The position numbers were made by a program, and so were the translations under genes. A stretch of 48,864 nt of DNA from Magnetococcales bacterium HCHbin5 (GTDB taxonomy: Bacteria; Pseudomonadota; Magnetococcia; Magnetococcales; Magnetaquicoccaceae). Shown here piece after piece: positions 194 through 16,265 of the stretch. The notes under the pieces are model-generated. The model was not told the DNA's origin. It saw nothing but the letters and a program-made list of their open reading frames with translations, and did no database searches. The stretch is taken from NCBI GenBank assembly GCA_002753505.1, contig PEAG01000019.1:1-48864 (forward strand). The letters run 5' to 3'. Each line of letters starts with the position of its first letter. The stretch's first letter is position 1.

Positions 194-1635
194 TTACGGC
201 AATACACTCTCCCCACCCCGCAACCAACCATCCACACCCTTGGCCGCCTGCCGCCCACCCGCAATGGCCTTCAAAACCAACGACTGACCGGTCGCCATGT
301 CACCCGCCGCAAAAACACCCTCCAGACTGGTCATATGGCGGGCATCCACCTTGACATTGCCCCGCTCATCCAAGGCAACCCCCAAAGCCTCCAACAACCC
401 ACTCTTGACCGGAGCCAGAAAACCCATGGCCAACAACACCAAATCCGCCTCCAGACTGAACGCGCTGTCCGCTATCTCCTGCATCTGCGGACGCCCCCCG
501 CCCTCATTTTCCTGCCAACGCAACCGCACACAGTGCAACCGCTTGACCCGATCCGCCTCCCCCTCAAAATGCTTGGTCAAAATGCTCCACTCCTGACTGC
601 ACCCCTCCTGGTGCGAGGTGGAAACACGCAGTTGAATGGGCCATAGCGGCCAGGGCGTCTCCGGGGAACGATCCTTGGGGGGCTTCGGCAACAACTCAAT
701 CTGGGTAACACTTTTCGCCCTCTGACGCACCGAAGTACCCACACAATCCGCCCCGGTGTCCCCCCCCCCGACCACCACCACATGCTTGCCGGTCGCCAAA
801 ATCTCCTCTTCCCGGGAAATATCTTCGCCAGCCAACCGCCGGTTTTGCTGACCCAAAAACGCCATGGCAAAATGGATCCCCTGCAACGACCGGCCCGGAA
901 TCGGCAGATCCCGGGGCAGCTCCGCCCCACCCGTCAGCAAAACAGCATCCTGCTCCTGACGCAACTGCTCGACCGAGAGATCCACCCCCACACAAACCCC
1001 CGTCCGCACGGTCAACCCTTCCGCCAACAACTGCTCCATGCGCCGGTCAATGACGCGCTTTTCCAGCTTGAAAGCAGGAATGCCATAGCGCAACAGCCCC
1101 CCCACACGGGCATTTTTCTCGTATAACGTCACCGTATGACCCGCCCGGGTCAGCTGTTGGGCCGCCGCCAACCCCGCCGGCCCGGAACCGATCACCGCAA
1201 CCCGCTTGCCGGTCTTTACCTTGGGTGGACGGGGCACAATCAACCCCCGACTGAACCCCTCCTCCACAATGGTCCGCTCAATCTCCCGGATGCTGACCGG
1301 CTCCTGATTAAGCCCCACCACACAAGAGGCCTCACACAACGCCGGACAGACATGACCGGTAAACTCCGGGAAATTGTTGGTGCGATGCAATGTCTCCACC
1401 GCCATCGCCCACTCTCCCCGATAAACCCAATCATTCCAGGAGGGTATCAAATTGCCCAGGGTGCAACCGTTGTGGCAAAACGGAATCCCGCAGTCCATAC
1501 AACGGGAAGCCTGTTCCTGCAAGCGGTCCCGGGCAAACGGCTGATAAAGCGCATCCCAATCGGTAATGCGTTCGGCTACAGGTCTCGCCCTGGGCGTCGC
1601 CCGCTCCACTTCCATAAAACCGGTAATTTTACCCA

Positions 1636-1636
<1 letters not shown>
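194..1636 (-). CDS. gltD: Glutamate synthase (NADPH) small subunit
   Basis: This 480-residue protein supplies electrons from NADPH to the glutamate synthase large subunit for ammonium assimilation in the cytoplasm. The N-terminal region carries the iron-sulfur cysteines ([14 protein letters not shown], then [11 protein letters not shown]). It is followed by an FAD-binding glycine motif ([13 protein letters not shown]) and an NADPH-binding motif ([11 protein letters not shown]), the usual order and length for GltD. The ATG at 1636 overlaps the gltB stop by one base (TAATG), which points to translational coupling. A longer reading frame from 1732 runs inside gltB and is unlikely. Confidence 0.97.
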
Positions 1637-6165
<4,529 letters not shown>

Positions 6166-8456: not shown

Positions 8457-9881
8457 TCAACGCGACTTCCGTCCCCTCCAGATGACAACCCCCGCAACCA
8501 AAAGCAACAGAGGAACAGCAAATACCAGCCCCACAAAGAGCAAAGTGCCACTGCCCTGGGATAACACCAGACCGGAATCCACCACATCCTTGGGCTTGAT
8601 GGCGATAAAGTTTTCATCCTCCACCAACCAACGCACCATGTTGAGAAACAGATCCGTGTTGCCAGAAAATCCCACATAGGCATCGGCAACAAAATCGGAG
8701 TCACCCACCACAACCAGCCGCTTTTTCTCCTGCTGCACCGTCACACCCAGCAAAATTGGACCCTTTTGGTCGGTCGCCGCGTTATACTCCACCGTACCGG
8801 CCTCCAAAGGCCCCCCCTTCAACCAACCCCGCTCCGCCCCGGAGAGCAACTGCACCGTCGCCACAGACGCGGGCGACTGCGCGGCGGGCGGCTGACCCGG
8901 TTTGACATCCCCCTCCACCGCAGGCTCCTCCAGACGCAACCCCCGCGCCTCCGGGAAAAACGAGGCCGCCTGCAAACCATTGGTAATGGGATGATCCCCA
9001 TCATATCGATTGACCAGCGGCGTCGTAATCCCGCCACCAAACAGACGCGCCACCGGATCAATGACAATACCCTCCAACAGGGTGATCCCATACGACTTGA
9101 GCAGCGGCTCCAAACCGGTGGTGGTGTTGGGATCACTCATCAATAAAACACGCCCCCCCGCCTCCCACCACACCTGCAACCGCTCCACCTCAATGGGCAA
9201 CAAAGGGGTACGCGGACCCGCCACAACAATGGCCACCGTCTCCGGCGGTATCTTTTCCACCTCCGCCAAGTTGAGCGGAGCCACCTGATACCCCTCCCCC
9301 TTCAACAACGCCGCCGCCTTGGCATAGGACAACCGCTCCTGATTCGCCCGATCCGCCTTGCCGGCGGCAGTCGGGGCCTGGTCCATCAGCACATGTTCCC
9401 CATGGCCCGTGACAAAACGAACCATCTTGGTCGTCCCCTTGGCCAGCCGAATCAATGCGTTGGTGAACGACTCCTCCGTCGTCTCCGTCACCTTTTCCGT
9501 CTTCTCGCCCGCCCGCAACACCACCGTCCCATACATGGCCACATCCGCCTGCCGGGCTGCAACCGGGTCCAGATCCGGATCAATAAAACGGATTTGCAAT
9601 TCGGGATTGGCCGCCCGATATTTTTCCAGCAAGGCGGTCAACAAGGCCCGCTGCTCCCCCTGCTCCTGCACATAAGCGGTGGCCAGAATCCCCTTCGGAA
9701 ATGCCTTGATCGCCTTGACGGACTGCTCCGCCAACGAATGCCGATGGGTGGCCGTCCAATCCCAGCGCACAGGATAACGATGGCTGGCATAGGCCAACAA
9801 GGCCAGCATAAGCAATAAAATCAACCCTACAGAAGAGCTTTGCAGACTCAAAGTGGTCCGCGTGGCGCGATTCATTTTCAT
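8457..9881 (-). CDS. GldG-like ABC transporter auxiliary protein
   Basis: This 474-residue protein has an N-terminal membrane segment (residues about 15-35) and a C-terminal one (SGTLLFVGLVFAVPLLLLVAGVVIWRGRKSR). Between them is a GldG/DUF4350-type periplasmic region, with the family-like start RHSLAEQSVKAIKAF, then PELQIRFIDPDLDP and the core VRFVTGHGEH. The middle (VAIVVAGPRTPLLPIEVERLQVWWEAGGRVLLM) resembles the glutamine-amidotransferase-like fold of this family. It is encoded between the permease and the DUF4340-like gene. The minus-strand start at 9881 has a GGGGGTGG tract upstream; ATG at 9875 is an alternative. Confidence 0.85.
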   Translation of the reverse strand: MKMNRATRTTLSLQSSSVGLILLLMLALLAYASHRYPVRWDWTATHRHSLAEQSVKAIKAFPKGILATAYVQEQGEQRALLTALLEKYRAANPELQIRFIDPDLDPVAARQADVAMYGTVVLRAGEKTEKVTETTEESFTNALIRLAKGTTKMVRFVTGHGEHVLMDQAPTAAGKADRANQERLSYAKAAALLKGEGYQVAPLNLAEVEKIPPETVAIVVAGPRTPLLPIEVERLQVWWEAGGRVLLMSDPNTTTGLEPLLKSYGITLLEGIVIDPVARLFGGGITTPLVNRYDGDHPITNGLQAASFFPEARGLRLEEPAVEGDVKPGQPPAAQSPASVATVQLLSGAERGWLKGGPLEAGTVEYNAATDQKGPILLGVTVQQEKKRLVVVGDSDFVADAYVGFSGNTDLFLNMVRWLVEDENFIAIKPKDVVDSGLVLSQGSGTLLFVGLVFAVPLLLLVAGVVIWRGRKSR

Positions 9882-9897
9882 ATGTGTATACCACCCC

Positions 9898-10665
9898 CTA
9901 GCCGCGAATCCGTTCTGCCATCAGTCGCTGTTGCGCAAACAACAGACCCGTCGCCGCCAGCAACAGGAAATAGACCAAATCCGTACTGCTCACCACCCCC
10001 GTCAAAAAATTCTGGTAATGGTTGGTGAGAGAAAGATAGTTCAATACCACGCTCATGCTGCTCCCCCCCGACTCCCCCACCCAGGAGACCACCCAAAGCA
10101 GCAACAAGACACCAAAAGAGGCCAGTGCCGCAACAATGGGATTATCGGTGGCACTGGAGGTGGCCAACCCGACCGCACCAAAGGCGGCCGACAACAAAAA
10201 CAGCCCCAGCAGACCGGAAAGGGTCTGCCCCAGATCCGGGTTGCCAAAAAGAAACAACAAAAAAACCGGCACACCCAGCAGCATGATGGTTATGGCCAAA
10301 AACAGCAACAACCCAAAATATTTACCCAGAATAATCTCCATCGGTGCCAGGGGCGAGGAGGCCATGGCGGCCCAGGTACCCCGCCGCTTCTCCTCGGCAA
10401 ACAGGCGCATGGTGATCATGGGCATGATCAACAACAATAAAACCGCTGCGTTGCCCAGCATGGGTGCAATGGTCCAGTCGGTCAGAGAGAGTTTGGAGGC
10501 CCCGCCAAAAGACTGAAACTGCATCTCTTTCAGTTGATAATTAAAAACAGCCGCCATGAACATGTAGGCGGTGATGGCAAACAGCACCGCCAACAGCGTC
10601 CAGGCCAACGGCGATAAAAACATGCTGCGCAACTCCCGCAGCGCAATGGTACGTATGGCCCTCAT
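9898..10665 (-). CDS. ABC-2 type permease (GldF-like)
   Basis: This 255-residue integral membrane protein has about six hydrophobic segments typical of ABC-2 permeases. It begins with the family-like cytoplasmic motif TIALRELRSMFLSPLAW, and the segment FAEEKRRGTWAAMASSPLAPMEIILGKYFGLL matches the coupling region of ABC-2 permeases. Its ATG overlaps the ATPase stop codon by four bases (ATGA), and the GldG-like gene follows 16 bases after its stop. It most likely forms the inner-membrane channel of the exporter. The substrate cannot be inferred. Confidence 0.9.
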   Translation of the reverse strand: MRAIRTIALRELRSMFLSPLAWTLLAVLFAITAYMFMAAVFNYQLKEMQFQSFGGASKLSLTDWTIAPMLGNAAVLLLLIMPMITMRLFAEEKRRGTWAAMASSPLAPMEIILGKYFGLLLFLAITIMLLGVPVFLLFLFGNPDLGQTLSGLLGLFLLSAAFGAVGLATSSATDNPIVAALASFGVLLLLWVVSWVGESGGSSMSVVLNYLSLTNHYQNFLTGVVSSTDLVYFLLLAATGLLFAQQRLMAERIRG

Positions 10666-11633
10666 GACACCACCTCCCGGGCTGCCGGGACGGCTGTCGC
10701 CTCCGCATCCTCCTCACGGGTAGTCAAATGCAGAAAAATCTCTTCAAGGGAGCCACCCACAGGCTGCAACTCCCGCAGATCCCAGCCATGGGCGGCCGAA
10801 CGTTGAACCAACTCCGGCAGCGGATCGCTCCCCTTTGCCGGGATAATGGTCCAGCCCCCCTCGCTGGCCTTGACATGGGCCACACCCGGTACCTGTTGCA
10901 ACAGCTCCGGCTCCGGGGGATGGTTCCAACGGATAAAAAAGGAGCCCTGCCCGGCGGCACTCTGCTCCAACCCCTCCAGGGTGTCATTGGCGACGATGCG
11001 ACCCTGGTTGATGACAGCCACCCGGTTGCAGGTCATCCGCACCTCCGGCAAAATATGGGTCGAAAGCAAAACCGAATGTTCGCCGCCCAACTCCCGGATC
11101 AGTTGCCGGATCTCCCGGATCTGGATCGGGTCCAGCCCCACGGTCGGCTCATCCAGAATGACCACCTCGGGACCATGAACGATGGCCTGGGCGATGCCGG
11201 CCCGCTGCCGATACCCCTTCGACAGGTTACGCAACAGTCGGTCCGCCACCTGCTTGAGTCCACACCGCTCCATGGCATGCTCCACCGCCCCCCGCAGCCT
11301 GGCACCGGGCACCCGGCGCAATGCGGCCAGATAGGTCAGATATTCACGAACAGTCATTTCGTCGTAAACAGGTGGCGACTCCGGTAAAAACCCGATTTTG
11401 GCCCGGGCCGCCACCGGGTTGGCAATCATGTCCAGACCGGCCACCTGCACACTGCCCTCGGTGGGAGCCAAAATACCGGCCAGAATACGCATGGTGGTGG
11501 TCTTGCCCGCACCATTGGGGCCCAGAAACCCCATCACTTCACCCCGCTGCACCTGAAACCCGATGGCATCCAACGCCTTGGTTGCGCCATAAAGTCGGGT
11601 CAGGTCGGATATTTCAATCATTGTCTCCGGCAT
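10662..11633 (-). CDS. ABC transporter ATP-binding protein (GldA-like)
   Basis: This 323-residue ATPase has all ABC motifs in order: Walker A (GPNGAGKTT), the signature (LSKGYRQRAGIAQ), Walker B (VVILDEPTVGLD) and the H-loop (LLSTHILPEV). The roughly 90-residue C-terminal extension is typical of the ABC-2/GldA subgroup. GAGGAA sits upstream of the ATG at 11633. It is the first gene of the four-gene operon and overlaps the permease gene by four bases. It should energise the exporter formed with the downstream products. Confidence 0.93.
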   Translation of the reverse strand: MPETMIEISDLTRLYGATKALDAIGFQVQRGEVMGFLGPNGAGKTTTMRILAGILAPTEGSVQVAGLDMIANPVAARAKIGFLPESPPVYDEMTVREYLTYLAALRRVPGARLRGAVEHAMERCGLKQVADRLLRNLSKGYRQRAGIAQAIVHGPEVVILDEPTVGLDPIQIREIRQLIRELGGEHSVLLSTHILPEVRMTCNRVAVINQGRIVANDTLEGLEQSAAGQGSFFIRWNHPPEPELLQQVPGVAHVKASEGGWTIIPAKGSDPLPELVQRSAAHGWDLRELQPVGGSLEEIFLHLTTREEDAEATAVPAAREVVS

Positions 11634-11727: not shown

Positions 11728-13290
11728 TCATGATGCCGAACCGCTCGGCCAGCCTCCCAGGGCCTCCTGGGCACCCTTCAATTGGGTCTGGACCGTCTGC
11801 CGGGAGGATTTCACCTGTTCCAATACCGCTCCACTACCCTGCAGAACGGTATGCATCTCCCCAATACCACCCTGCACCAAGCGGGACAAGGCCGCATGGT
11901 GTGTCAACAACTCTGCAATCCTGGCAAACAACGCCCCCTCCTTGCGGGACACCTCGGTCACATTTTCAAATCGCCGACGGGTCTGAACTGTATGCAGTTG
12001 ATCGGTCCGAATATGGACAATGCTGTCCTCTGCCCGGTTGACCAGAGTTTCTGCCACCAACACATTGGCCCGAGCCAACTCCTTGATCTCATCCGTAAAG
12101 ACCGCAAAACTGCGGGTGGCATCCGAGCGAAACGCCTCCGCGCTGGCATTGGTGGCCAACAAATTGATTTGACTTGTCAAGTCTCGCAGATGCCGGATCG
12201 TCCGCCCGCTCTCTGTTGCCGATTCCAGCAACAGATCCGCCCCCTTGTTGAGTTGCTGAATCAGCAGACCGGCCTGCTCCAGAGCCTGGTGCTCCTCACC
12301 CACCAGGCTGCGCATCTGCTCTGCCAGGGAGAGGGCGTTGTCTGCCTGAAGTACCAGATTTTGCACCTCCGTCATTATGGAAGCGACCCGTCCCCGTTCA
12401 CCTGCGATGATCTGCTCCACCTGCTGGCTGGCGGGATCCAACTGCTGGAAAGCCTGTTGCAAGTGCGTCAGCGCATCAGACAGCAGCAGCAAGGATTGAC
12501 TCGTCAAGCTGTTTTTGTTCCGCTCCCGCTCTTTTTGTACCTGAATGATCACCAGAACCAACAAAAACCCCATCACCAGGGCAAAACCCACCGCGGGTAA
12601 AACCACCTGAAATACCCAGTCACGCTGATGCCTGGAGTCCACCGCCAAACTCTGGGGCAGTTGTTTGACCCGCTCCATCACATCCTTGATCCCCCCCTCC
12701 ATGCGACGGACCTCATCCTCCAGGGCGGAAAGATTGCCCTTCAGAAAGGCCATATGCTTGTTGGCCTCCTCCTCCGCCGAGGCATGATCCCCAACGGCAA
12801 TTGTCTCCGTCTTGGACAAAAAATCATACTGGTAGATGCCCCGTATCAACAATGCACCCAGATGCTCGTAATCCCCATGGGATTTTTCGATCCCTTTCAG
12901 CAGGGTCTTGATGGTATCAATCTCTTTCAACCGCGCCTCGGACCGGGCCATCTCCATACCCTTCTGGGCCACATTTCTCCCTTCCAGAATTTCATCCCCA
13001 AACCGCTTGCCCGCCTGGATAAATTTTTCGTTGCTCACCTCAAATTTTTCCCGGTCACCCACCCGCGCAAAAAACAGCACTTCGTTGAACCGCAAGGTCT
13101 GATCCAACTGGTGGCGGGTAATCTCCGTCACCACATTGAACAGGGGAAACTGCTCCCTGTCCACCGAATGGAGGGTCTCGTCATACTGGTAGATGACAAA
13201 CAGGCTGTACCCCCCCACCGCGAGCAAAAAAACAGCCAACAGTCCATACAAAAGCAGCAGGTGGAGAGTGAGTTGCAATTTTTTAAACAT
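11728..13290 (-). CDS. Atypical methyl-accepting-chemotaxis-like membrane protein
   Basis: This 520-residue protein has two membrane segments (residues about 8-33 and 228-250) flanking a largely helical periplasmic domain of about 195 residues that resembles a four-helix-bundle sensor. The cytoplasmic part is a long coiled coil whose tip (about 372-405, LTSQINLLATNASAEAFRSD then SFAVFTDEIKELARAN) resembles the chemoreceptor hairpin tip but with clear substitutions. No HAMP domain is evident after the second membrane segment. The start at 13290 has GAGGG upstream. It is encoded 33 bases after the channel gene on the same strand, so the two are probably co-transcribed. It may signal to CheA/CheW or be a divergent structural relative; coupling is not shown. 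Confidence 0.8.
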   Translation of the reverse strand: MFKKLQLTLHLLLLYGLLAVFLLAVGGYSLFVIYQYDETLHSVDREQFPLFNVVTEITRHQLDQTLRFNEVLFFARVGDREKFEVSNEKFIQAGKRFGDEILEGRNVAQKGMEMARSEARLKEIDTIKTLLKGIEKSHGDYEHLGALLIRGIYQYDFLSKTETIAVGDHASAEEEANKHMAFLKGNLSALEDEVRRMEGGIKDVMERVKQLPQSLAVDSRHQRDWVFQVVLPAVGFALVMGFLLVLVIIQVQKERERNKNSLTSQSLLLLSDALTHLQQAFQQLDPASQQVEQIIAGERGRVASIMTEVQNLVLQADNALSLAEQMRSLVGEEHQALEQAGLLIQQLNKGADLLLESATESGRTIRHLRDLTSQINLLATNASAEAFRSDATRSFAVFTDEIKELARANVLVAETLVNRAEDSIVHIRTDQLHTVQTRRRFENVTEVSRKEGALFARIAELLTHHAALSRLVQGGIGEMHTVLQGSGAVLEQVKSSRQTVQTQLKGAQEALGGWPSGSAS

Positions 13291-13323: not shown

Positions 13324-15492
13324 TCAGTTAAACAACACAATAGCCGTACTCACCATCAGCACGGGATAGATCACAATGGCAACCGCATCCACCTGGGCCG
13401 CCAAAGAGCGTCTGCCCTTGATGTGCAAGGCACTGGCAATAACGGTCTCGATGATGGCAAAAAAGATGAAGTAATAGGTCATCATAAAAAAGGTGTCGAT
13501 GCGCACCAGATAGCCCACATCCACCTTGTTGACATTGTGAAAGGACATGGAACTCAACAGGGTGGTGACACCCACCGTGAACCGGGAGGCGGTGAACTCA
13601 AAATTGATAAAAAACATCGCATACGCCAGCAGCACCAGGACCAACAACGGCAGCAATTTGATGATATATTGGCCTGTTTTCCGTTCCAGCAATATCTGAT
13701 AGGTGAATTGGGAGTTGTTCAACTGGAACAGCTTGCGATTATATTTCGGGTTGCGATAACTCCATATCCCCTCGTTCTCACTGGTAAACTGGATGTGCTG
13801 AACATCTTTCCATGCCTTCAGCCCCAGATCCTTGCGCAAAAAGGAGTCATCCGATATGTCGGTGACCAGAATCAAGTCCTCCTTGTTTTTTACCTTCGGC
13901 TTGATCCGAATTTTTAACGTCTGCTGATCAAACGGATACTCCTTCAACGGAAACGAGCCATCCAACTGGGCGGTCACATCGTAGGAGATAAAATTGTTGT
14001 TGGTTGCCTTGTCGTAATATTTTTCCCGAATGGCCGCCGCCAGCACCTTGCCATAGGTCATTTCAAAATTCAGTTTTTCGTTCTGGTCTGGATCCCAGCG
14101 GAACCAGAGCAAAAAGTCGGCGACAAAATTGCCGGCAACCGGATCAAACGATTTGATTTCATTGACGTGCAGACCGGTAAAAACCACCGTGGTCCGCTTG
14201 ACAAAACGGCCATCCATCTTGAAGGCCCGCAGGCTGTTCTCTTTGCGTGCTTTGACCAGCTCGGGATATTTGGCATAGGTAAACTGAAACCGGGCCGGCA
14301 CAAATTGACCGTTCTTGACCTCTCCAATGGCAATCGGTCTGCGACTGGAGCCATTGCTGTCAAAGTAAATGGGGCCGGAAATGCTGTCAATGGCATCTTC
14401 CTCGCGGATAATTTTGCTTAAAAATTGCCGGATGGCAGAGCGTTCCGTGCCAACCTGCCGGATGGCGTGGGCGATCAGGCGCACCGCTTCGTAGGAGTGG
14501 GTGGCCACCCAGTCGGGGTTGGTCTGATAGGTCTGCACAAAATTGGCCTCATAGCGTCGCGCACTCTCCCCCAGCAGGTTGGGCAGATAAGGGGTGACCG
14601 CATACACATTTTCGGCATAAATGCCGGCCCCGCGAATAAAATGGGGCCCCCCCATGCTCTCCCCGCCGATAAAATCAGCCGTGACACCCTTGTCCTTGAG
14701 CCATTTGATCACATTGGCCGCACCGCTATAGTTCATGGCCAGAAAGATGATTTCCGACTCGGACAACATTTTCAGATGTGCCGCCAGTTCGTTGGGGTTG
14801 AAGCGGGTGCCATCAATCTTGACCACACCCATCGGTTTGCTGCCCTGGATCTCCAACTCCCGCACAAAAAAGTCTGTCAGCGATGTTCCATAGGCCGTAT
14901 CGCTGTAAATCACAGCAATTTTTTCCCGCATCAACCCGTAAAGGACATAATTGGCCAAAAAGACCGATTGGTAATAATCATCCGGGATAATGCTGAAATT
15001 GCCCGAAAATTTAGCTGTCACCCCCGGATTGGTGGCTGTAGGCGCAATCAGGGGAATCTGATTTTCCTGGTAGACAGGGCTGGCGGCCAGGGTGGGACCA
15101 CTGAAATAGTGGCCAACCACCGCCAGCAGTTTATGGTTGGCCGCCAACTCCCTGGCCGCCTCCACCGCCCGGTTTTCCGTACTCAGGCCACTGCGATCAT
15201 CCGTCACCACCATGCGCAGGGTGATCTTTTCCAACTCATTGTTTCGATTGATCTCATTGACAGCCAATTCGACGCCACGGCGCATGGAGAGTCCCACTTC
15301 CGCAAACGGGCCCGTCAGTGGGGCGGCCAATCCGATGTAGAAGGTCTCTCCCCGCTCGTTCAACAACAACGGCCACAACAGCCGCCAGCCAATCAGGCCG
15401 ACAACCAACAAAAACCAGAACAAAAACAGAACACGTTTGCGCTTTATGAGGGCAAAACGTTCCCTCTTCTGGTCGGCGATGGGCTCAGCCAT
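13324..15492 (-). CDS. Venus-flytrap binding domain fused to a pentameric ligand-gated ion channel
   Basis: This 722-residue protein joins two known modules. After a short cytoplasmic tail and a membrane anchor (about 17-40) comes a type I periplasmic binding domain (about 50-400; FYIGLAAPLTGPFAEVG opens it), as in branched-chain amino acid binding proteins. Residues about 430-605 form a pentameric-channel extracellular domain with the hallmark YPFDQQ at 519-524 in the Cys-loop position; the loop cysteines are absent, as in other bacterial members. Four membrane helices follow: M1 609-633 with its conserved proline, M2 634-655 (RFTVGVTTLLSSMS, very like glycine/GABA receptor M2), M3 663-686 and M4 701-722. 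ATG at 15492 is chosen because AAGGGGA lies upstream; GTG at 15522 lacks such a site. Ligand and ion selectivity are unknown; there is no glutamate at the -1' position. Confidence 0.9.
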   Translation of the reverse strand: MAEPIADQKRERFALIKRKRVLFLFWFLLVVGLIGWRLLWPLLLNERGETFYIGLAAPLTGPFAEVGLSMRRGVELAVNEINRNNELEKITLRMVVTDDRSGLSTENRAVEAARELAANHKLLAVVGHYFSGPTLAASPVYQENQIPLIAPTATNPGVTAKFSGNFSIIPDDYYQSVFLANYVLYGLMREKIAVIYSDTAYGTSLTDFFVRELEIQGSKPMGVVKIDGTRFNPNELAAHLKMLSESEIIFLAMNYSGAANVIKWLKDKGVTADFIGGESMGGPHFIRGAGIYAENVYAVTPYLPNLLGESARRYEANFVQTYQTNPDWVATHSYEAVRLIAHAIRQVGTERSAIRQFLSKIIREEDAIDSISGPIYFDSNGSSRRPIAIGEVKNGQFVPARFQFTYAKYPELVKARKENSLRAFKMDGRFVKRTTVVFTGLHVNEIKSFDPVAGNFVADFLLWFRWDPDQNEKLNFEMTYGKVLAAAIREKYYDKATNNNFISYDVTAQLDGSFPLKEYPFDQQTLKIRIKPKVKNKEDLILVTDISDDSFLRKDLGLKAWKDVQHIQFTSENEGIWSYRNPKYNRKLFQLNNSQFTYQILLERKTGQYIIKLLPLLVLVLLAYAMFFINFEFTASRFTVGVTTLLSSMSFHNVNKVDVGYLVRIDTFFMMTYYFIFFAIIETVIASALHIKGRRSLAAQVDAVAIVIYPVLMVSTAIVLFN

Positions 15493-15518: not shown

Positions 15519-15887
15519 TCACGGTGCAGCAGACCGGCTGTAGGGTTCCTGAATGGTATTTTGCAATCCACGGGGCGCGGAACCCCGCTGCCGACCCCGG
15601 CTTTGAACTCGCCCCTGGTCATTGGGCTCCAACTCCGTGCCAAGCCCCTCTGTCTGGGAAAAATCCCCATGGCCTGCCGCATCTCCAGGTTCCAATTCGC
15701 GTTCCCGGCCGGAATAGCGGAAATCCATGAAGCCACCTCCCCGGTCGTTATCTCCCGGCTCCCATTCAGAACGGTCCGGTGCCGACCCCGCTTCACAAAC
15801 CACACCCAACAGCCCCATCAGAATCAAAGCAACGACCAACGGAGCGTCACCCCTCCTGCAGCCGATGCTCCTCCTGTTGCCGTTCAT
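15519..15887 (-). CDS. Small exported protein with EPGD-like repeats
   Basis: This 122-residue product is not recognised. A basic N-terminus is followed by a hydrophobic stretch (APLVVALILMGLLGVVCEAGSA) that looks like a Sec signal peptide; the cysteine context is a poor lipobox. The mature part is short, polar and glycine-rich, and repeats an acidic motif three times (EWEPGDNDRG, ELEPGDAAG, ELEPNDQGR). GGAG lies nine bases before ATG 15887; an in-frame ATG at 15920 has no such site. It precedes the channel gene closely, its stop lying 26 bases before the channel ATG, so it may belong to the same transcript. Confidence 0.55.
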   Translation of the reverse strand: MNGNRRSIGCRRGDAPLVVALILMGLLGVVCEAGSAPDRSEWEPGDNDRGGGFMDFRYSGRERELEPGDAAGHGDFSQTEGLGTELEPNDQGRVQSRGRQRGSAPRGLQNTIQEPYSRSAAP

Positions 15888-16265
15888 CCGCTCTGTCTCC
15901 TTTCCATCACCCATGGACACCGTACATCAGCCACTATAGGCCGAGACAAACCTTTTGACCAGCACTACCACACCCACACGCCGCAACACCCCCGAAAAAT
16001 CATGCAAGTTTCTGACCGCATTGCAGATCAAGGCCGAAAAAAATGCTTGTATCGCCCGCTCTCCACAACAATTCACCAGCGATCTTCCCTGCCCCCTCGA
16101 CTGCGGTTCCAGCGCAGCCTGGCAACCGCTCCGCCGGACAATTTCTTTTTCCCAGTACTTGACCTGGAGTAAAAATTCTATAAAATGGTCTGATTTTACC
16201 TGTATCGGCTCCGGCAGTCAGCGGGGTCGATGGTTTGTTCATGTCCCATAGAGAGGTGTTTTTTT
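15888..16265. other. Divergent intergenic region upstream of rpsP
   Basis: These 378 bases separate the sensory cassette from the ribosomal operon. The rpsP promoter is annotated separately. On the minus strand a TATAGT hexamer (complement of 15933-15938) could be a -10 box for the cassette, but no good -35 was seen. No gene-like frame is present. Confidence 0.4.
16159..16186 (+). promoter_or_regulatory. Probable sigma-70 promoter of the rpsP operon
   Basis: TTGACC at 16159-16164 and TAAAAT at 16181-16186 are separated by 16 bases in an AT-rich stretch, about 80 bases before the rpsP start. This fits a vegetative promoter driving the ribosomal/tRNA-modification operon. It was identified by eye only. 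Confidence 0.6.

Follow-up and report, generated by a model that had tools for sequence, protein, structure and literature searches.

The locus and the fusion protein

The window (the whole stretch of DNA analysed here, 48,864 nucleotides of contig PEAG01000019.1 from Magnetococcales bacterium HCHbin5) carries a gene encoding a fusion between a type I periplasmic binding domain (PBP-I, the flytrap) and a pentameric ligand-gated ion channel (pLGIC), here called P0001 (13324..15492, minus strand). The gene is a single open reading frame (ORF) of 722 amino acids that starts with an ATG at 15492 and runs without internal stops to the stop codon at 13324, with a GTG at 15522 as an alternative start. 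Beginning 33 nt past the channel stop, a second gene encodes an MCP-like transducer of 520 amino acids (11728..13290, minus strand), recognised by its MCPsignal and TarH matches. Upstream of the channel gene lies a small ORF of 133 amino acids (15519..15920, minus strand), which has a signal-peptide-like N-terminus and no Pfam match; counterparts with 36-48% identity occur at loci L001, L002, L003 and L005, and this ORF is possibly a third gene of the channel unit. Further downstream, genes for an ABC ATPase, an ABC2 membrane protein and an ABC_transp_aux protein (8457-11633, minus strand) form an ABC transporter set that is gliding-type, GldA/F/G-like, by its domain content.

All features of P0001 lie on the minus strand. 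The protein begins with a membrane anchor (15370..15432; residues 21-41), identified by its sequence and by a hydropathic segment at residues 21-39 and showing no evident signal-peptidase site. It is followed by the PBP-I domain (14308..15339; residues 52-395; Pfam PF13458), which matches Peripla_BP_6 with an E-value of 4.7e-45 and 155.2 bits against a cut-off of 31.7, covering profile positions 3-342 of 343, and whose pocket includes residues S131, T154, Y201 and E278. The pLGIC extracellular ligand-binding domain (ECD; 13675..14211; residues 428-606) is delimited by profile, hhalign and tree evidence and bears, at the Cys-loop position, the motif YPFD (13927..13938; residues 519-522), extended to YPFDQQ at residues 519-524. 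Four membrane helices complete the protein: M1 (13609..13665; residues 610-628), placed by hydropathy and by the conserved M1 proline P615; the pore helix M2 (13522..13584; residues 637-657), with R637 at 0', L646 at 9' and K656 at about 19'; and M3 (13435..13491; residues 668-686) and M4 (13330..13386; residues 703-721), both placed by PDB alignment together with hydropathy. The stretch RFTVGVTTLLSSMS, within M2, corresponds to residues 637-650. The anchor, M1, M3 and M4 exceed the hydropathy cut-off and M2, too polar, falls below it, as is usual in pLGICs.

Because no cysteine pair flanks the YPFDQQ loop, and the disulfide of eukaryotic Cys-loop receptors is thus missing, P0001 is better described as a 'Pro-loop' than as a strict 'Cys-loop' receptor. 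We regard this anatomy and the family assignment as practically certain. A first-pass annotation had read from the DNA a type I periplasmic binding domain, a channel ligand-binding domain with YPFDQQ, four pore helices and an extra N-terminal anchor giving five membrane passes, all within one protein, and each of these elements is borne out by the profile, PDB-alignment and hydropathy evidence; it included neither the strand nor the MCP-like gene conserved next to the channel, nor the MscS versions described below.

Channel half, ligand pocket and pore

The same annotation had named three Pfam profiles as a check on its reading. Peripla_BP_6 scored far over its cut-off, whereas the two channel profiles did not reach theirs: Neur_chan_memb gave an E-value of 1e-4 and 23.1 bits (cut-off 28.1), and Neur_chan_LBD an E-value of 0.014 and 15.3 bits (cut-off 26). 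A search of the source genome with Neur_chan_LBD gave no match, nor did it match the controls, so that its outcome carries no information either way. In our judgement these scores are outweighed by the fold-level evidence for pLGIC membership, a Pfam cut-off being a convenience and not a defining criterion. In this regard, phmmer searches against the PDB matched a GLIC/GABA-A chimera over residues 513-713 (E 5.8e-12) and glycine receptors over residues 500-714. A family profile restricted to the ECD found GLIC with an E-value of 1.2e-6 in two collinear segments, namely beta1-2, which is weak when taken by itself (i-E about 60), and the Cys-loop region, and hhalign aligned the ECD with those of ordinary bacterial pLGICs at an E-value of 1.5e-21. 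In addition, P615 is invariant among relatives, and P520, D522 and R604 are present in 18/18 PBP-channels from five lineages. In known pLGICs the aspartate equivalent to D522 pairs with the pre-M1 arginine (R604 in P0001), the two forming the classical coupling pair. AlphaFold2 returned a pLDDT of 47 for the whole protein (8 sequences) and of 41 for the ECD together with the transmembrane domain (TMD; 6 sequences), both from shallow alignments; since these models were not usable, the pentameric state and the placement of the flytrap rest on family membership.

When searched alone against the PDB with phmmer, the transmembrane part found GABA-A and glycine receptors as its best matches (GABA-A alpha-5/alpha-3, E 3.4e-11), in agreement with the likeness that the annotation had seen in M2. 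The TMD of an ordinary bacterial pLGIC, used as a control, also matches GABA-A best (27.8 bits vs 46.8 for the TMD of P0001). The resemblance is thus owed in part to the content of the PDB, and the idea that a likeness to animal anion receptors is peculiar to P0001 is weakened by this control.

The close relatives of P0001 found by searching genome contigs all belong to Magnetococcales and are 74-90% identical, including that of Candidatus Magnetaquicoccus inordinatus UR-1. Among the 48 genomes searched, proteins of the lineage (at least 50% identity) occur in several families of the class, and a paralogue 53% identical to P0001 lies in the same genome, on contig C144. In the flytrap, S131, T154, Y201 and E278 are kept without exception by the relatives (17/17). 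When P0001 is aligned with the LIV-type amino-acid-binding proteins 3td9 and 3ip5, three of these residues (S131, T154 and E278) fall on the Ser, Thr and acidic positions that bind the amino acid in such proteins. The ligand of P0001 is thereby predicted, with fair confidence, to be of amino-acid type, and the guess of an amino acid ligand made from the DNA alone gains support from the invariant putative alpha-amino-acid pocket. The prediction is confined to the P0001 lineage, because most of the MscS versions and the remaining PBP-channel lineages show a drifted pocket motif.

In the pore helix, none of the 17 relatives departs from Arg 0', Gly 4', Met 12', His 15', Asn 18' or Lys 656, and Leu 9' is kept in 16/17; the numbering of Lys 656 (19' in a gap-free count) is unsure, as the HMMER alignment opens a short gap beyond 9'. 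In animal channels a Glu near -1' goes with cation selectivity and an Arg-containing motif with anion selectivity, the anion channels also having a Pro at -2'. The relatives of P0001 have an acidic residue at neither -1' nor -2'; P0001 has an Ala at -2', and at -5' a Glu or Asp is conserved. Since the -2' Pro is absent and an acid is present at -5', a preference of the pore for anions is put forward as a lean only, with the balance tipped slightly in its favour. That P0001 gives a ligand-gated current appears likely.

MscS-borne relatives and the MCP-like partner gene

The search of the class also brought up proteins of about 1000 amino acids that match P0001 over residues 15-550 only. At the C-terminus they carry an MscS channel, which in full-length fusions matches MS_channel_2nd with E-values from 1e-15 to 4e-21. 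A profile built from pLGICs only matches these proteins with E-values down to 7e-22, and the match ends at or before the ECD/M1 border, leaving out the pLGIC pore. Conversely, a profile of the MscS-borne ECD aligns with the ECDs of ordinary, flytrap-free bacterial pLGICs over 162 columns (hhalign probability 98.1, E 7.4e-14), compared with a probability of at most 0.7% for 20 reversed or shuffled decoys; an hmmsearch of the PDB with the same profile gave no pLGIC match. The pLGIC-profile and hhalign matches make it very probable that the MscS-borne domain is homologous to pLGIC ECDs.

The MscS versions are found across Magnetococcia, in Azospirillum (A. brasilense Sp7, on plasmid NZ_CP012915.1, A. 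oryzae, A. argentinense and Azospirillum sp. B510) and in at least 5 genomes of another proteobacterial genus; in the class of genome G164 no MscS fusion was found. Assembly errors can be ruled out as their source by the recurrence of the fusions in many genomes, on complete Azospirillum plasmids and in single-contig genomes. One gene first taken for a pore-less form (L027, 1168-3318) is actually a PBP-ECD-MscS gene with a TAA after the first C-terminal membrane helix. In Azospirillum sp. B510 the fusion gene (L070, 3860-6928; NC_013856.1, AZL_RS21910) is annotated only as 'ABC transporter substrate-binding protein' and adjoins type I secretion genes. Two proteins of 1137 and 1143 amino acids, both from genome G009 (L111, 3856-7269, and L115, 2106-5537), join PBP-I, a pLGIC ECD and an MscS pore to a C-terminal cNMP-binding domain (E 2e-16 and 8e-16, respectively). 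Other arrangements were seen among the pLGIC genes themselves: at L108 a PBP-pLGIC gene and an ordinary pLGIC gene (415-1620 and 1598-3925, both on the minus strand) overlap by about 20 nt and possibly encode a heteromeric pair, and at L110 (2-2488) and L118 (3396-5855) pLGICs carry a long non-PBP, sensor-like N-terminal region that is Cache/MCP-N-like by eye.

In a tree of ECDs, built without the Magnetospirillum magnetotacticum and Bradyrhizobium japonicum proteins of PMC549065, the 21 MscS versions group together (100/98) in a single clade beside the PBP-channel L060 (88/71), so that a single pore swap suffices to account for them. An AU test did not reject a single clade of all PBP-channels (p 0.22), so that the swap may have gone in either direction. 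At the position of the YPFD aspartate the MscS versions have Gly, Ser or Leu (20/20), and the pre-M1 arginine is replaced in 19/20, the alignment near the membrane border being less sure. These replacements fit a changed output. The sensor would, by hypothesis, gate the MscS pore. We incline, if only slightly, to the view that anchor, PBP-I domain and pLGIC ECD constitute a transferable cassette gating two unrelated pores, those of pLGICs and of MscS, the latter at times with a cyclic-nucleotide domain in addition, and joined in the P0001 lineage by an MCP-like transducer.

The transducer encoded next to P0001 is laid out as a membrane helix, a periplasmic helical domain, a second membrane helix and a coiled coil with an MCP hairpin tip; no HAMP domain was found in it. 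Its match to MCPsignal is below the cut-off of 34.6 (E 1.5e-6 and 28.6 bits with hmmscan, 33.2 in the genome search), as is that to TarH (E 0.0017), and the partner of the paralogue passes the MCPsignal cut-off with 37.5. A homologue of the partner lies directly downstream on the same strand at 17/17 distinct loci of the P0001 lineage (family A) long enough to be read, with 23-65% identity and, wherever its start can be told, a spacing of 4-96 nt. The partner gene also accompanies the paralogue on C144 (L114), the copy at L017 seems to be interrupted by a frameshift, and in genome G005, where the downstream side lies past the contig end, an MCP-like gene is located upstream of the channel. The partner profile gave 0 matches at the 21 MscS-fusion loci, about half of which have less than 250 nt of downstream sequence, leaving some twelve as the control, and none at the loci of the four other PBP-channel lineages. 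Mean identity among partners is 42% in the periplasmic domain and 42% in the hairpin tip, the core of which is conserved across them, vs 18-20% in the coiled coil.

We consider it likely, and hold this with good confidence, that the MCP-like gene is a functional partner of the channel, and we infer that it encodes a specialised transducer used together with it. About 30 genes of the genome match the MCP signalling domain with ordinary scores, so that a chemotaxis array is likely present. Both channel partners are among the weakest MCPsignal matches of the genome, and with its score below the cut-off the partner of P0001 may be silent toward CheA/CheW; it may also be just co-inherited within one bacterial class.

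Proposed mechanism and known systems

Starting from the domain anatomy, conservation and gene order read in the sequences, we infer a series of later steps. P0001 would be an inner-membrane, most likely pentameric prokaryotic pLGIC with a tethered amino-acid flytrap, and would supply the sensor in a chemosensory unit of two genes. The PBP lobes would close on a periplasmic alpha-amino acid or a close analogue, and closure would be passed to the ECD below and, through the coupling between the Cys-loop aspartate and the pre-M1 arginine, would open or sensitise a pore that passes anions or is at least not of the cation type. The MCP-like partner would share in the signal: it may contact the channel through its periplasmic domain and the chemotaxis array through its hairpin tip, and the ligand would in this way alter swimming. 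As a whole, a flytrap-gated pLGIC forming a chemosensory unit with an MCP-like partner is in our view the best explanation of the locus, though by a modest measure of confidence, and for chemotaxis as the output of the unit the chances appear even.

Part of the same evidence can be read differently. MscS-type pores usually serve osmotic release, and the occurrence of the sensor on them would suit a valve for osmotic or ion homeostasis that external amino acids open, with no role in taxis and with the MCP-like neighbour serving a separate function; a partner was not found, however, at the MscS loci, some twelve of which extend far enough downstream to judge, and is always present at the readable loci of the P0001 lineage, which makes such a valve distinctly unlikely. 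That very constancy of the partner gene, together with the fact that the periplasmic domain is one of the two best conserved parts of its product, would also be expected if P0001 were a non-conducting flytrap receptor in which the pLGIC part served as a pentameric scaffold relaying conformational change to the MCP-like protein. M2 nevertheless keeps positions 0', 4', 9', 12', 15', 18' and 19' invariant or nearly so, as in a working pore, and we hold this alternative to be very improbable.

A further possibility, doubtful yet of some weight, is that the PBP domain is an accessory modulator and that the true agonist (an amine, a proton or calcium) acts at the ECD interface, which in P0001 retains the full pLGIC layout. 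The N-terminal domain of DeCLIC appears to play such a part, as it tunes gating, with calcium binding both there and in the ECD (PMC12664993). An amino-acid pocket that is invariant in the P0001 lineage, and drifted in other lineages, would nonetheless be needless in a purely structural domain, and we retain the flytrap-gated channel with its MCP-like partner as the preferred reading.

The first-pass annotation had cautioned that bacterial channels with added periplasmic domains might be known already, and rightly so: fusions of PBP-I and pLGIC have been described in two alphaproteobacteria, Magnetospirillum magnetotacticum and Bradyrhizobium japonicum, and a role as chemoreceptors was proposed for them (Tasneem et al., 2004, PMC549065). 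According to two further sources, N-terminal domains on prokaryotic pLGICs occur and are little characterised (PMC9221113, PMC12664993), and terminal domains were set aside in another study (PMC4795631). P0001 is hence a new lineage of a known architecture. Full-text literature searches, judged on titles and abstracts and covering few subscription papers, found no PBP-MscS protein, no pLGIC-ECD-MscS protein and no pair of a pLGIC and an MCP-like gene, and we provisionally regard the PBP-ECD-MscS fusions and the pairing with an MCP-like gene as undescribed.

The MCP-like partner and the MscS cassette raise the interest of the locus beyond that of the known fusion. Little is known so far of what the relatives of neurotransmitter receptors do in bacteria. 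With a named gene pair and few candidate ligands to try, the chemoreceptor proposal made 20 years ago becomes testable in a lineage that keeps both the amino-acid flytrap and the MCP-like partner. In the MscS versions, one of which occurs in the cultured Azospirillum brasilense Sp7, a Cys-loop-type ligand domain appears to have been joined in nature to a pore of another family; these chimeras bear on how ligand domains and pores came to be paired in evolution and are ready candidates for a ligand-gated MscS. Were the cassette reading true, the textbook link between the ligand domain of Cys-loop receptors and a five-fold pore would be non-obligatory in nature.

Among known systems, the fusions of PMC549065 share with P0001 the order of an N-terminal PBP-I domain, a channel ligand-binding domain and four membrane helices, but their neighbours are stand-alone PBP-II or Cache proteins, and the part of that paper accessible to us mentions neither an MCP-like partner gene nor an MscS version. 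DeCLIC from Desulfofustis (PMC12664993, PMC9897478) is likewise a prokaryotic pLGIC in which a large periplasmic domain precedes the ECD; in the accessible portions of those reports, however, its NTD1/NTD2 lobes bind calcium and are not described as PBP-I flytraps, and an MCP-like partner is not mentioned. GLIC, ELIC and the animal GABA-A and glycine receptors resemble P0001 in the ECD, the YPFD-type loop, the M1 proline and the four membrane helices, from which P0001 departs by its added flytrap and N-terminal anchor and by having neither a Cys-loop disulfide nor an intracellular domain (ICD). MscS and bCNG channels have the pore type of the MscS-borne relatives of P0001, two of which also end in a cNMP-binding domain, and the known members carry, to our knowledge, neither a PBP-I domain nor a pLGIC ECD. 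Finally, although their pore is unrelated and homology is confined to the PBP-I domain, AMPA/NMDA and metabotropic glutamate receptors are alike in principle to P0001, as they too place a PBP-I flytrap ahead of another sensor or membrane domain.
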